This document shows, one piece after another, positions 20,403-25,635 of a stretch of 32,113 nt of DNA (position 1 is the first letter of the stretch; every line of letters begins with the position of its first letter). The stretch lies in the NCBI RefSeq assembly GCF_001368795.1, contig NZ_LN831198.1:3567279-3599391 (forward strand), read 5' to 3'. The notes beneath the pieces were generated by a model. That model searched no databases and had not been told where the DNA came from. It saw only the letters and a program-made list of their open reading frames with translations. Position numbers and translations under genes: made by a program. The DNA comes from Paenibacillus ihuae. Lineage in GTDB: Bacteria > Bacillota > Bacilli > Paenibacillales > Paenibacillaceae.

Positions 20403-21737
20403 TTATTTCGTAACAGCCTGCTTGGCAATACGCTCCGGTACAATATCGTTGGCGACGATGTCATGATGGGACTCGCGGCGTACAACCAGATCGCTCTGTC
20501 CATTCTGTACAAAGACCACAGCCGGACGACGAATCCGGTTGTAATTGCTGGCCATCGAATAATTATATGCACCTGTGCAGGCCACTGCAAGCAGATCACC
20601 GCTCGCAACCTTAGGAAGCTCCACGTCCCAGATCAGCATATCACCGCTCTCGCAGCATTTGCCGGCAATGGAGACTGTCTCTTCATTGGCTTCCGTAGCA
20701 CGGTTAGCCAACAGCGCCTCATACTTGGATTCATAGAGTGCAGGGCGCGGATTATCTGTCATGCCGCCGTCAACAGCCACATATTTACGGACTCCCGGAA
20801 TCTCCTTATTCGTTCCCACGGTATACAGCGTAGTGCCGGCATCACCGACGATGCTGCGGCCCGGCTCTACCCAGATCTGCGGCAGCGAGCTGCCGATTCC
20901 GCTGAAATGCGTCTTCACCGCATCCGTGATGGCTGCCACATATTCAGAGACCTGCAGCGGCGTATCGCCTTCCACATAACGGATACCAAAACCGCCGCCG
21001 AGGTTGACGACAGGGAAATCAATGTTCAGCTCTTCCTTCACTTTGCGGGTGAAGTCAGCGATCCGTTCAACCGCAAGCTGGAAGCCCTCGGTTTCGAAAA
21101 TCTGCGAGCCGATGTGCGAATGAACGCCAAGCAGCTGCAGGTTGGCTTGGTCCGCAGCCTGCTGCACTGCAGCATAAGCGGAGCCGTTGCCGATATCAAA
21201 GCCGAACTTCGAATCGGTCTGGCCGGTCGAAGCATAGGCATGGTGGGCATGGGCTTCAACGCCCGGCGTAACGCGCAGCAGCACATTTACGGTCACTTCT
21301 TTGCTGGCTGCAATAGCCTGCAGGAGGTTCATCTCCACCAGGTTGTCGACCACGAAGCAGCCGATTCCCGCTTCAATTGCCATTTCAATCTCATCCGGAG
21401 TCTTGTTGTTGCCATGGAAGTGAATGCGCTCCGCCGGGAAGCCGGCCTGCAGGGCTGTATACAGCTCTCCGTCAGACACTACATCTAGTGACAAGCCCTC
21501 TTCATCAGCCAAACGGCACATAGCCATGATTGAAAAAGCTTTGCTGGCATAGGCTACCTGAAATCCGAGCCCGGAAGCTCTGAAGGCATCCATGTATTCG
21601 CGGCAGCGGCGCCGGATTAATTGCTCGTCCATTATATATAGCGGGGTACCATATTCCGCCTTCAGTTCGGTCACATCACATCCGCCGATTTCCAAATGAC
21701 CGGCATCATTAATTCGGCTCGTCCCGTGTAAAAACAT
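20403..21737 (-). CDS. lysA: Diaminopimelate decarboxylase
   Basis: 444 residues, a normal LysA length. This PLP enzyme converts meso-diaminopimelate to lysine, the last step of lysine synthesis. In a sporulating cell it also competes with the cell wall for diaminopimelate. It is a fold-III alanine-racemase-like barrel with the PLP lysine in VAYASKAFSI (Lys66), the phosphate-binding VVNLGGGFGIRY, EPGRSIVGDAG and the second-subunit cysteine motif CCESGDML near the C-terminus. The ATG has GGAGG eight bases upstream. A TATAAT box about 48 bp before the start suggests its own promoter in addition to read-through from spoVAF. Confidence 0.97.
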   Translation of the reverse strand: MFLHGTSRINDAGHLEIGGCDVTELKAEYGTPLYIMDEQLIRRRCREYMDAFRASGLGFQVAYASKAFSIMAMCRLADEEGLSLDVVSDGELYTALQAGFPAERIHFHGNNKTPDEIEMAIEAGIGCFVVDNLVEMNLLQAIAASKEVTVNVLLRVTPGVEAHAHHAYASTGQTDSKFGFDIGNGSAYAAVQQAADQANLQLLGVHSHIGSQIFETEGFQLAVERIADFTRKVKEELNIDFPVVNLGGGFGIRYVEGDTPLQVSEYVAAITDAVKTHFSGIGSSLPQIWVEPGRSIVGDAGTTLYTVGTNKEIPGVRKYVAVDGGMTDNPRPALYESKYEALLANRATEANEETVSIAGKCCESGDMLIWDVELPKVASGDLLAVACTGAYNYSMASNYNRIRRPAVVFVQNGQSDLVVRRESHHDIVANDIVPERIAKQAVTK

Positions 21738-21784
21738 TGTTCAGTCCTCCAATTTCTGTGGAATATCTCGATTCCAACCTGTCT

Positions 21785-21790
21785 ATTATA
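21785..21790 (-). promoter_or_regulatory. Possible -10 box of a lysA promoter
   Basis: A perfect TATAAT on the minus strand, 48 bp before the lysA start codon. No good -35 lies 16-18 bp upstream, so this is tentative. I see no terminator after spoVAF in the 198 bp before lysA. Confidence 0.3.
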
Positions 21791-21935
21791 TGTTATTCAG
21801 CCCCGCAGAGTTCTAAAATTAGGCAGATTATTTAAAACTCATTCCTAACAAGGGCTATTTAGTGTATTCAGTATAGCAGACAGAGGGAACGCCATAGAAT
21901 GGACTAATTTGCAGTTGATTTGTATTTTTGTGCGA

Positions 21936-24473
21936 CTATTGATCATTCTCCTGAACGGGCGGCATCCGGGTATTATCTCTTGTTTTGTTGAAAGAAGGCC
22001 TTGTTTTGGCGCTGAGCACAGGCTGACGTACGAGAATAGCGCCAAAGGCTTTTGCATTAAACGGTATAAACGGCCACAAATACGAGGAGTTGTACGACCG
22101 GTGCATAGTCAGCAGAACAATGAGCAGTGTAGTCCCGATCATAAACCCCTGCACCTGGAACGCAGCTACCGCGAGCAGCAGAGCAAGCCTGACGATCCGG
22201 TTAGCCAGCCCCAGCTCATAGCTCGGTGTTGCAAACATCCCGATGGAGGCCACCGCCATATACAGCACCACTTCATTGACAAAAAGTCCGGTCTGCACGG
22301 CGATATCACCCACCAGAATCGCAGCAATCAGACCCATAGCTGAACCGAGCGGTGTCGGCGTATGCACCGCTGCCATCCGCAGCAGATCGACCCCAAGCTC
22401 GACGATCAGGAACTGGGCCAGCAGCGGGATTTTGGCCATTTTCTGTGGTCCGATAAAATCGAGCATGGCCGGCTTCAGCTCCGGATGAATTACGAGCAGC
22501 ATCCATAAAGGGAGCAAAAACATGGAGGCGAAGACGCCGATAAACCGTACCCAGCGCAGATAGGTTCCCATGAACGGAGTCTGCCGGTTCTCCTCTGCAT
22601 GCTGGCAGAGATCAAAAAACGTCGTCGGCAGAACAATGACGCTTGGCGAGGTATCTACAAAGATTACCAGCCGGCCTTCCAGCAGATGCGAAGCTACAGT
22701 GTCTGGGCGTTCTGAATAACGGACCAGCGGATAGGGATTCCACCCTCTGCCCACGATTGCTTCTTCCAGCTGCTTGTCCGCCAGCGGTATGCCGTCGATG
22801 TCAATGCTTTTAATCTTGTCAGTGACGGCCTTCACCTGCGTCTTGTCCACGATGTCATCAATATATGCCACACAGACATCCGTCCGCGTCCGGCGGCCCA
22901 CCTGGTGCATCTCAAATTTCAGTCCGGGGTCGCGGATTCTTCTGCGTACCAGCGCCACGTTGCTGAGCAGGGTCTCCGTAAATCCGTCACGCGCACCGCG
23001 TACTACCCGCTCAATGGAAGGCTCATCGGGACTGCGTGAAGGATACGAGCGGGTATCCATAATGATAACCTGTGTCTCCCCTTCAATGAAGAACACGCTC
23101 ATGCCCGACAGCACCTTGTTAATGCTCTCGCTTAACAGCTCGCCTTTTTCCACCTGCATGTGGGGAATATATTCGCTCATGAAGCTGGCGAGCACATCGG
23201 CGGATATATCTTCAGGCGTCAGATAGGTTAGCCGTTTCAGAATTTCGTCAATGATTGTATCCTTGGCGAATCCGCTGATGCACAGCAGTGCAGCCCTGCG
23301 GCCGCCAAAGGACATTTCCCTGAATACGATGTCAAAAGAGGAGCCGAGTCCCAGTACCTCCGTCAGCGTACCTTTCGTATCCTCCAGCCGCGCGGGAATT
23401 TTGTCATTTCCCTGCCAGTAGATAATCGATTGCTCCAGGGAATCAGAGTGTTCAGTGTCGCGCTTCTTCTGCTTCGGATCGGCCTTTTGGGGTTCCTGTG
23501 ACTGAGCTTGCTTTTTGTCGGTCTTGGACTTCCCGGCCTGATCCTTCAGGCCGTCGGCTTCCGCTTCTGCCTGCTGCTTGCTTTGCTTATCCATCCCCAG
23601 ATCCTCAGCGGATTCTTCCTCCTCCGTTTCCGGATCATCTCCGAACAGTCTGGCAAAGAACCCCCTTTTGGCAGGTTCCGGTTCCTCTGTCCCCAGCTCG
23701 CTTGACGCCTCTGCATCCTGCGCCTGTCCGTCTGGATCCATATTTCCGTCTTGTTCGCTGTCGGCTAATGCCTTATTGTCTGTCTCCGAATTGCCTTCCT
23801 CAGTGCTCTCAGCACCCTCTGGCTCATTGGCATCTGCCTCCAAACTTTCTTCGGTATCAGAACTGCCTTGGACCTCCGGCTCTTCTTCCTGCTGCGAATC
23901 CGGTCCCTCCTGATCCGGCGTGCCCGCACCATCCGAAACCTGCAAATCATGATCGCTATAGCCGGTCGCACCGGCATCAACACCAATATCCGTCCCAAGC
24001 TCAGCGGAGGCCTCAGCATCCTGGTTGCCGGATATTTCGGTCTCAGGGATATCCTCTGTTTCTGAATCGCTGTCTAACAGTGTGAATATAAACTCCTTCC
24101 CGGACTGTCCGCTGCTCTGTCCACTTGCGTGTACCTCGTCAACACCGGATAAATCCGGTTCAGCCTCCTCTTGAGGCGAAGCTGAGCGATCTCCCTGAAG
24201 CCGGTCCGCCTCCGTATCAGAACTGCCCGAAGCTTCTGGCTCCGCTTCCTGCTTCGGCTCTTCGTCTTCCTGATCCGGCGAGCCGTCTCCAACCACTGAA
24301 CGGTCGCCTTCGGGAACGGTTTGCCCATGGTCAAACAGCATCCCCGGTTCTTCCGCCGCTTCCGCTTCACCCGGCGGGCTGTCAGCAGAGACCTTTTCAT
24401 CGGAGTCTGCCTGTTTATCTTTAACGTGATCGTTATCTTCAACGTGATCTCCACTATGAATATACCTTACCAC
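21936..24473 (-). CDS. spoVAF: Stage V sporulation protein AF, GerA family, with a long acidic N-terminal extension
   Basis: 845 residues, against about 490 for SpoVAF of B. subtilis. The GerA-type part starts near residue 349 (SIIYWQGNDKIPARLED, FREMSFGGRRAALLCISGF) and ends in five to six membrane helices (LRWVRFIGVFASMFLLPLWM, LIAAILVGDIAVQTGLF). SpoVAF is an inner spore membrane protein made in the forespore and involved in germination. The first 347 residues are highly acidic, disordered-looking and contain internal repeats. The GTG start at 24473 has an ideal RBS (GAGGAGG, seven bases), so the extension is translated. An internal ATG at 23594 (residue 294, GAGGATCTGGGG just before it) could give a 552-residue form nearer the usual size. 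It is the third gene of the unit, 80 bp after spoVAB. Confidence 0.9.
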   Translation of the reverse strand: MVRYIHSGDHVEDNDHVKDKQADSDEKVSADSPPGEAEAAEEPGMLFDHGQTVPEGDRSVVGDGSPDQEDEEPKQEAEPEASGSSDTEADRLQGDRSASPQEEAEPDLSGVDEVHASGQSSGQSGKEFIFTLLDSDSETEDIPETEISGNQDAEASAELGTDIGVDAGATGYSDHDLQVSDGAGTPDQEGPDSQQEEEPEVQGSSDTEESLEADANEPEGAESTEEGNSETDNKALADSEQDGNMDPDGQAQDAEASSELGTEEPEPAKRGFFARLFGDDPETEEEESAEDLGMDKQSKQQAEAEADGLKDQAGKSKTDKKQAQSQEPQKADPKQKKRDTEHSDSLEQSIIYWQGNDKIPARLEDTKGTLTEVLGLGSSFDIVFREMSFGGRRAALLCISGFAKDTIIDEILKRLTYLTPEDISADVLASFMSEYIPHMQVEKGELLSESINKVLSGMSVFFIEGETQVIIMDTRSYPSRSPDEPSIERVVRGARDGFTETLLSNVALVRRRIRDPGLKFEMHQVGRRTRTDVCVAYIDDIVDKTQVKAVTDKIKSIDIDGIPLADKQLEEAIVGRGWNPYPLVRYSERPDTVASHLLEGRLVIFVDTSPSVIVLPTTFFDLCQHAEENRQTPFMGTYLRWVRFIGVFASMFLLPLWMLLVIHPELKPAMLDFIGPQKMAKIPLLAQFLIVELGVDLLRMAAVHTPTPLGSAMGLIAAILVGDIAVQTGLFVNEVVLYMAVASIGMFATPSYELGLANRIVRLALLLAVAAFQVQGFMIGTTLLIVLLTMHRSYNSSYLWPFIPFNAKAFGAILVRQPVLSAKTRPSFNKTRDNTRMPPVQENDQ

Positions 24474-24553
24474 TCCATAACCTCCTCAAGTTCAATGAGC
24501 TTTATCTCACAACATTTTCACTCCCGGCTCCGGCCAGCTCCGGAACCCCTGGT

Positions 24554-24979
24554 TTACCTCTGGTATACAAACCAGTCAAACATAGAGCCCGCAACCTTCC
24601 CGCATACCATCGCCATCAAAAGGCCAAACAGATAATGGGTCATGTACAGACGTTTAGCCAGAATAGGCAGCACGTTCAGCACTTCTGTCAAGGCGGCCGC
24701 CAGCATTCCGACAAATATTCCGTCAAGCAGCCCTACTCCCAGCTCAGCTATAGGACCGGCGTAAATTTTCCAGTTCCAGAAATCACTCATGGTTCCAAGC
24801 AGCGAGCCTCCTACCATCGCACCTTCGTACCAGTGCACCTTGTCATAGGAAGAAGTCAGCTGGGCCAGACGGGGCACCATATCCAGTACAATGAACAGGG
24901 CAATAACCCCTCCGCCAACTGCGATTCCTCCCGCAACCCCAAGCAGCAAATGCAGGCCAAGTAGGATTGGCGCTGTCAT
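24554..24979 (-). CDS. spoVAB: Stage V sporulation protein AB
   Basis: 141 residues with about four membrane helices. SpoVAB-like features: LLLGVAGGIAVGGGVIALFIVLDMVPRLAQLT near the start, YEGAMVGGSLLGTMSDFW and GLLDGIFVGMLAAALTEVLNVLPI. The SpoVA proteins of the forespore membrane handle uptake of dipicolinic acid during sporulation and release in germination; the specific role of AB is unclear. Its ATG overlaps the spoVAA stop codon (ATGA), a sign of translational coupling. Confidence 0.93.
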   Translation of the reverse strand: MTAPILLGLHLLLGVAGGIAVGGGVIALFIVLDMVPRLAQLTSSYDKVHWYEGAMVGGSLLGTMSDFWNWKIYAGPIAELGVGLLDGIFVGMLAAALTEVLNVLPILAKRLYMTHYLFGLLMAMVCGKVAGSMFDWFVYQR

Positions 24980-25635
24980 GAGGAATCCTCCTTACGCCTG
25001 GATGGTTCAGTATGGTTATTCATCTTGCTGTATTCTTCATGCACAACATAGTGATCGATATTTTTTTGATACAGAAACATTTCTACTTCCAGCGGGGTCG
25101 GCTCCTCATTCCATTTTTTCTTGAACAGATGATTGAAAAAAATCACCATCCCAAACCCGATTCCCAGTGAATAGGCAATCTGGAACATATAGGGATGCTC
25201 ATCCCGCCGTCCGGTCAGCATCTCGACTACCCGGATGTGCACCTCTAGCATGTTGACGTCGGCATGGAAATTCATAATGGTCAGCGCCGATCCGAAGAAC
25301 AGCAGAAGCCATACGAGGACGAACAGGGCAACCGATGGCTTGCGGGCCTCGGCCGGCCCTTCAATCTGTACAATGGTCCGCCCCTCGCCGATCGGCTGGA
25401 TATCAGCATCCGGTACAAGCTCCTGGATACGGGGAATAATGGTCAGCAAATCGATTAGAATCAGATTCCCGTCGCTTTGCTCCGGCTGGAGCAGCAGAAT
25501 TGAATACAGCGGTTCTCGCCACTGCGGTTCAGCAATCAGATAAGCCACATCCCGCAGCATGACCCCCTGCCCCTTAGGCACCGACAAGCGGTTCTTAAGC
25601 TGTATGTAAATTACGGGCGCTGATTGGCTATTCAT
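24976..25635 (-). CDS. spoVAA: Stage V sporulation protein AA
   Basis: 219 residues. The N-terminal half is soluble (VIYIQLKNRLSVPKGQGVMLRDVAYL, LIDLLTIIPRIQELVPDADIQPIGEG) and two membrane helices follow (SVALFVLVWLLLFFGSALTIM and MFQIAYSLGIGFGMVIFF), the SpoVAA layout. The C-terminal tail is charged. It is the first gene of the forespore unit spoVAA-spoVAB-spoVAF, with AGGAGGTG seven to eight bases before the ATG and a sigma-G-like promoter 29 bp further upstream. It overlaps spoVAB by four bases. Confidence 0.94.
   Translation of the reverse strand: MNSQSAPVIYIQLKNRLSVPKGQGVMLRDVAYLIAEPQWREPLYSILLLQPEQSDGNLILIDLLTIIPRIQELVPDADIQPIGEGRTIVQIEGPAEARKPSVALFVLVWLLLFFGSALTIMNFHADVNMLEVHIRVVEMLTGRRDEHPYMFQIAYSLGIGFGMVIFFNHLFKKKWNEEPTPLEVEMFLYQKNIDHYVVHEEYSKMNNHTEPSRRKEDSS

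Follow-up and report, generated by a model that had tools for sequence, protein, structure and literature searches.

What is a long, strongly acidic chain doing in front of an otherwise ordinary spore germination protein? The question is raised by the spoVAF gene of Paenibacillus ihuae (21936..24473, minus strand), located in a window of 32,113 nucleotides (assembly GCF_001368795.1, contig NZ_LN831198.1, positions 3,567,279 to 3,599,391 of the forward strand), which is the whole stretch of DNA analysed here and part of a genome of 6.72 Mb in 13 contigs. Judged by its sequence, the 845-amino-acid product is SpoVAF, an A subunit of the GerA family (PF03323, E 1.2e-153, profile positions 7-465 of 466). 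SpoVAF and FigP are described in passages of PMC11841064 as an ion channel that speeds germination, and FigP/YqhR is encoded elsewhere in this genome (PF11085, E 5.3e-25). An earlier note, made from the DNA letters, had pointed to an acidic Glu/Asp/Ser/Gln-rich segment that precedes the GerA-type part and more than doubles the cytoplasmic part of SpoVAF. Both statements hold, residues 1-348 (23430..24473) carrying a net charge of -77, against -3 for the remaining 497 residues.

Here we describe this tail, which is real, apparently translated, acidic and, as modelled, disordered, and the short module that it shares with relatives in one branch of the genus. SpoVAF/FigP amplifies germination via ion release. 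With its well-kept short module, the tail offers a defined peptide for deletions, substitutions or bait experiments on how the core-facing part is regulated, through which one could ask whether the disordered tails of germination proteins, that of GerIA included, are tethers or are clipped by the protease GPR.

The acidic tail of SpoVAF

The tail, supported by composition, predicted local distance difference test (pLDDT) values and the ratio of nonsynonymous to synonymous substitution rates (dN/dS), consists of 16.1% Glu, 13.2% Asp, 10.6% Ser and 7.8% Gln, with no Trp or Cys. All features of the gene lie on the minus strand. The GTG start codon is preceded 7 nt upstream by GAGGAGG, a good ribosome-binding site, as the earlier note had it. 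The N-terminal YIHSGD (residues 4-9, 24447..24464) is conserved among the N-termini of relatives, [YF][IVF]HSG being found within the first residues of SpoVAF in 25/25 scorable named members of the window's branch. These counts come from 80 named loci, the only ones for which starts were set by rule, open-frame lengths being used elsewhere; one branch member (L056), whose contig ends inside the tail, is left out of the tail counts.

An annotation artefact, in which translation starts at an internal ATG (codon 294, 23594) or a local sequence error has fused the tail to the protein, appears very improbable. The in-frame ATG exists, as the earlier note had observed, but the short form proposed from it is unsupported, because the ribosome site is poorly placed (GAGGAGG lies 23 nt before, too far, and nearer there is only a weak GAGG) and because, by eye, Met at this spot is present in two near relatives (L040 and L042) and absent from most others. 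An internal start was rejected on these grounds, and a start only there is unlikely. Comparison of SpoVAF lengths, as the earlier note had proposed, finds the extension in all 25 scorable named branch relatives, each with a comparable start, so that the condition set in that note for refutation, absence from every close relative, does not hold.

Self-comparison recovers both repeats at the positions originally given for them. The 23-residue repeat (PDQE...GSSDTE; residues 66-88, 24210..24278, and residues 186-208, 23850..23918) is an internal duplication, recognizable as DNA (76.7% across 73 columns, self-blastn E 3.7e-6). The 11-residue repeat (QDAEASAELGT, residues 151-161, 23991..24023, and QDAEASSELGT, residues 252-262, 23688..23720) is weaker as DNA (self-blastn E 0.008). 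The first copy of the latter is followed by a DIGVDAGATGYSDHDLQVSDGAGTPDQEG block (residues 162-190, 23904..23990) common to part of the branch, and the two spots named in the earlier note, the hydrophobic FIFTLLDSD (residues 128-136, 24066..24092) and KRGFFARLFG (residues 269-278, 23640..23669), also stand where it placed them. Copying of the tail from elsewhere in the genome was considered and rejected, no second copy being found there at E<=0.01.

AlphaFold2, run on SpoVAF with 38 aligned sequences, leaves residues 1-326 unfolded (mean pLDDT 29-47 in ten-residue blocks up to residue 330) and folds the protein confidently from about residue 331, in the GerA domain. By prediction and composition, more than 200 disordered residues thus precede the N-terminal domain, an arrangement of the GerIA kind. 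Scans of 7 tails gave no credible Pfam or NCBIfam match, and weak low-complexity matches, for example to rep_pAB02_ORF2 (E 0.0025, 18 bits vs a cut-off of 85), were rejected. The GerA part of SpoVAF is ordinary. Residues 376-827 (21993..23348) form the GerA-type A-subunit part, with matches to PF03323 and to the A-subunit N-terminal domain, which is detected by sequence (GerK3A 6o59, E 3.5e-34; GerIA 9prb, E 4.7e-19) and by Foldseek (GerK3A/GerIA, E 3.1e-12 and 1.1e-7), where the top five matches are all such domains, with low template modelling scores (0.24-0.27 by query).

A conserved module within the tail

The 23-residue repeat and FIFTLLDSD do not stand up as conserved parts, since the double repeat and a FIFTLLDSD-like string each occur in 2/25 named branch relatives (L040 and L042). 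The 11-residue repeat and KRGFFARLFG, noted earlier as separate pieces, are both conserved, but as halves of one unit, in which a spacer of about 9 residues separates [DE]-x-E-[AVI]-[SA]-x-E-[LP]-G from K-[KR]-G-F-F-A-R-L-F-G, with an acidic run after the latter. In the window, the second copy of the 11-residue motif forms its first half and KRGFFARLFG its second. As a target, the module is preferable to the repeats that the earlier note stressed.

A 43-residue form of the module, searched against 100 genomes of the genus, matches in 53 at E<=1e-3, and each of these matches falls in an open frame as long as the spoVAF of that genome. Outside spoVAF frames, matches reach only E 0.25-0.96, in eight genomes, and a module in other proteins was rejected on that basis; five of these outside regions were inspected and gave one FF-type string, KRGFFARLMRLLL before a membrane helix in an LCP-type protein. 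The pattern [FLIW][FLW]x[RSK]LFG has 28 copies in 21/28 tails (the window and 27 named) and none in 300 shuffles. Within the branch, the FFxRLFG-type half is present in 21/26 tails. In each of the five members that lack it (L060-L063 and L065) some form of the first half is retained, and in four another hydrophobic patch follows [DE]xEAxxE, for example GFIRSILPG or GFVALMDKWFG, while a further relative (G048) has GFLNFLFG in place of the second half. The placement of the module is similar across tails: the FF of KGFFARLFG starts 77 residues before residue 349 in the window, and in relatives the FF of the last copy is usually 67-93 residues before the corresponding position (109-164 in L048, L052 and L054). 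There are 1-2 copies per tail, with a second copy in several species, and in P. jilunlii the 11-residue unit is repeated five times in tandem, once in a form with EPG.

Distribution and evolution of long tails

Tails of 191-600 residues are found in 25/25 scorable named relatives of the window's branch, the nearest named SpoVAF relative being that of Paenibacillus auburnensis (98% across the GerA part). The 54 other named loci comprise 51 with tails of 34-103 residues, one of 126 (L093), and P. taiwanensis and sp. ACRRX with 262 and 254 (L114 and L116). In an 81-row tree built on the GerA parts, two changes are needed to account for long versus short tails; the window's branch comprises 27 rows including L056, with a Shimodaira-Hasegawa-like approximate likelihood ratio test (SH-aLRT) value of 100, and no reversion to a short tail is seen inside it (L056 not being scorable). 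By parsimony, a single origin of the long tail at the base of this Paenibacillus branch is most likely. As an observation on one tail, that of Paenibacillus sp. HOT.CON.154 (L057) contains a long, nearly pure Glu run and EEPEEKPKKKPKK-type repeats.

Across the 100 genomes of the genus, spoVAF open frames reach at least 690 residues in 64, none fall between 620 and 690, and 34 are of 521-612 residues; in G043 and G037 a contig end truncates the frame. The figure of 64 is an upper count, because open-frame length can include read-through, as in G051, where an open frame of 706 proved on inspection to be read-through upstream of a short tail. A family-wide search found a SpoVAF match in 133/148 genomes. 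Long hydrophilic tails of unrelated sequence occur in other genera (20 regions inspected, of which those of three g13 genomes, with open frames of 677-729, seem to be short tails preceded by read-through). Since these are unrelated in sequence, long tails appear to be recurrent in the family and to have been gained more than once. In genus g5 (L138-L144), long tails of other sequence have a conserved hydrophobic patch by a similar motif, for example DWMEALLLEASAEPG or DWMEAFLLEGAGELG. A match at E<=1e-100 is found in 17/19 genera, and in 0/13 genomes of genus g8. Outside the family, a class-wide search gave 87 matches (80/121 genomes), GerA paralogues perhaps among them; none of their open frames exceeds 607 residues, compared with 849 for the gene in the window. 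The P. ihuae protein thus differs from these matches, among which B. subtilis was not singled out, while resembling B. subtilis SpoVAF of the SpoVAF/FigP ion channel in belonging to the GerA family and in having FigP/YqhR in the genome.

Over nine close pairs, the tail has a dN/dS of 0.21-0.36 (less reliable in two pairs, where tail dS is >1), compared with 0.03-0.05 for the GerA part and 0-0.19 for the module, taken as 33 codons; the tail evolves several-fold faster than the rest of SpoVAF and is still constrained. One alternative is a tail without a specific role, a low-complexity expansion that is tolerated as nearly neutral and drifts in length. The tail's several-fold higher dN/dS, its range of lengths within one branch, its fast-changing repeats, the long Glu run in L057 and the unrelated sequences in other genera would all be expected of such an expansion. 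A ratio well below 1 in the tail and lower still in the module, the retention of the FFxRLFG-type half and of the [YF][IVF]HSG start, and the lack of any reversion seen in the scorable branch members are not, and we consider this explanation unlikely, if the strongest of the alternatives.

A possible core-facing tether

When a disordered acidic chain that changes fast retains a short hydrophobic-basic motif, the motif usually serves for docking, on a membrane surface or a partner. Starting from the reading frame, the disorder prediction, the branch-wide retention, the purifying selection and the conservation of the module, we favour, tentatively and at somewhat less than even confidence, a core-facing acidic tether. 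In this scheme, residues 1-348 would be a genuine part of SpoVAF, remaining unfolded and facing the core from the spore inner membrane, a position suggested because the N-terminal domains of A subunits lie in the spore core (passages of PMC13170314). The tail would have grown from a short acidic tail by internal duplication, most likely once, at the base of the branch. The amphipathic KGFFARLFG peptide would dock either on the surface of the inner membrane or on another germination protein nearby, and the acidic chain would act as a spacer and a cation-attracting brush beneath the SpoVAF/FigP ion channel, with a possible effect on ion release. A disordered tether, or binding of other germination proteins, had been suggested in the earlier note; either is possible and fits the conserved short motif.

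The closest known design is that of GerIA. As described in passages of PMC13170314, B. cereus GerIA has ∼240-260 disordered N-terminal residues whose function "remains unknown", B. anthracis GerHA is similar, and the crystallised GerIA piece starts at residue 245. SpoVAF of P. ihuae is like GerIA in being a GerA-family protein with a long disordered region ahead of its A-subunit N-terminal domain; it is unlike GerIA and GerHA, which are germinant receptors with B and C subunits, in that the tail is on SpoVAF, the partner of FigP, and the likeness described here is one of layout. The GerIA-type design is already known; here it occurs on SpoVAF, together with a conserved module. Judged by title or abstract, none of the papers found on SpoVAF and Paenibacillus, on N-terminal extensions of SpoVAF and on disordered germinant receptors (PMC3533761 among them) describes such a SpoVAF tail, a set drawn mostly from openly accessible papers.

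A further comparison is with E. coli FtsY, in which an amphipathic membrane-targeting helix comes after an acidic A domain. The SpoVAF tail resembles FtsY in layout, combining an acidic flexible region with a GFFARL-type amphipathic stretch; FtsY differs as a protein, in position and in process, and no homology is claimed. The N-terminal targeting sequence of FtsY is stated in a passage of PMC8082313 to be degraded by an unknown protease.

Several points weigh against a docking tether. We know of no docking partner of the tail. In a second predicted fold, docking of the module motif on SpoVAF's own N-terminal domain was not predicted, the motif not settling there (motif pLDDT <50). Confidence in the SpoVAF model is low overall (mean pLDDT 52.9, predicted template modelling score 0.34) and the membrane part is poor too, so that low pLDDT is found beyond the tail too and the assignment of disorder depends partly on composition. 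Strings of the form GFF[AS]RL[FM] occur in unrelated proteins (a BamC tail, and the LCP-type protein before its membrane helix), and the motif may therefore be generic. L065, a member of the branch, holds just a weak module remnant, and the long tails of the P. taiwanensis pair are without the module and near neutral (-1.9 and -5.1 per 100 residues). SpoVAF can also do without a long tail, as seen in the 34 genomes with open frames of 521-612 residues and no contig cut, and in G051.

The charge of the tail could alternatively make it a cation or calcium-dipicolinic acid (Ca-DPA) binding reservoir near the channel mouth. The 25 branch tails are net negative by 9.8 to 22.6 charges per 100 residues, and short tails are also acidic (51/52 net negative). 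The two P. taiwanensis-type tails, with their small charge, fit such a reservoir poorly, no match to a calcium-binding family was found in the 7 tails scanned, and acidity alone leaves the conserved module unexplained. Nothing beyond acidity speaks for the calcium/DPA binding proposed in the earlier note, and a reservoir of this kind seems improbable to us.

Possible clipping by GPR

Small acid-soluble spore proteins (SASPs) are spore-core proteins cut by GPR in germination. GPR might clip the SpoVAF tail, because E-[AIV]-[SA]-x-E-L-G is spaced like the GPR site in the SASPs of this genus. On this alternative, [DE]xE[AIV][SA]xELG would be a GPR site, and clipping at core rehydration would retire the channel or free the tether, the tail serving also as an amino-acid store; we regard this as unlikely, to nearly the same degree as neutral expansion. 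A shade less likely again is a protease-timed channel, whose work would be ended or altered by GPR cleavage of the core-facing tail via SASP-type sites. If true, such clipping would link the SASP-degradation programme to the germination machinery.

The tail is like an alpha/beta-type SASP in the E-x-[AS]-x-E-L-G spacing and, presumably, in exposure to the spore core. SASPs of the same genome have YEAAQELG, YEVAQELG and YEVAKELG, and one has both YEIATEFG and DTEFASELG, giving a spacing of E-x-[AS]-x-E-[LF]-G; tail sites read DAEASSELG, DTEAADELG, DAEISGELG and KMEASAELG. The pattern E[IFAVLM][AS]xE[LF]G has 37 copies in 22/28 tails, against a shuffle mean of 0.06, and gpr is present in the genome. 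With a matrix built on 14 distinct SASP sites, which represent 34 loci in 13 genomes (SASP minimum 16.1; 100 shuffles), the best tail site is above the 95% shuffle level in 20/28 tails, and 7/28 tails have a site in the SASP range (>=16.1), for example KMEASAELG vs KMEAAQELG. Genome-wide, the motif has 38 matches in DNA (9 in a reversed control), of which 6 are in SASPs and 2 in this tail.

The same comparisons also count against GPR. The remaining 30/38 genome matches lie outside SASPs and SpoVAF, so the string is not specific, and the best tail site fails to beat the shuffle level in 8/28 tails. The best site in the window scores 13.8, under every SASP site used. P2' is Ser in 34/43 ExxxELG tail sites, including both in the window, and Ala in 6, whereas it is Ala in 14/14 distinct SASP sites; P3' is mostly Asp or Gly, not Gln, some copies have EPG, and none of the tails (0/28) contains the more restrictive SASP pattern E[IFV]A[SQTR]E[LF]G. 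Unlike alpha/beta-type SASPs, the tails are without a SASP domain (no PF00269 match at E<=5 in 7/7 tails scanned). Arg at P3' occurs in SASPs (G028 and G030) and in SpoVAF tails of the P. forsythiae group, but not in the same species, and co-variation at P3' between SASPs and SpoVAF tails was not seen. A SASP "EIA" sequence is named as cleaved in a passage of PMC8452069, and the passages on GPR in PMC7985256, PMC3416734 and PMC11392383 contain nothing on its specificity. The two-site SASP mentioned above (L129, C2:142835-143086) is of the alpha/beta type, with DTEFASELG in a Gly-rich insert beside YEIATEFG.

Gene neighbourhood and other GerA-family genes

spoVAF lies in a spoVA gene context, with spoVAA and spoVAB directly upstream. 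The gene order on the minus strand is spoVAA (24976..25635; PF12164, E 6.3e-14), spoVAB (24554..24979; PF13782, E 9.6e-33), which overlaps spoVAA by 4 bases, and spoVAF. With a simple pattern, no sigma-G promoter was found before spoVAA or spoVAF. The downstream open reading frame (20403..21737, minus strand), named lysA from inspection with no family search made, presumably encodes diaminopimelate decarboxylase. The stretch with these genes (window 20403-25635) is without spoVAC, AD and AEb between spoVAA, spoVAB and spoVAF, and SpoVAC/AEb-type genes lie elsewhere in the genome, in two stretches (C1:1006859-1008858 and C7:55125-56858) plus another piece at C7:68235. The genome contains 20 GerA-family matches, including one pair of pieces split by internal TGA stops (C1:3343449-3344833), perhaps a decayed receptor gene.

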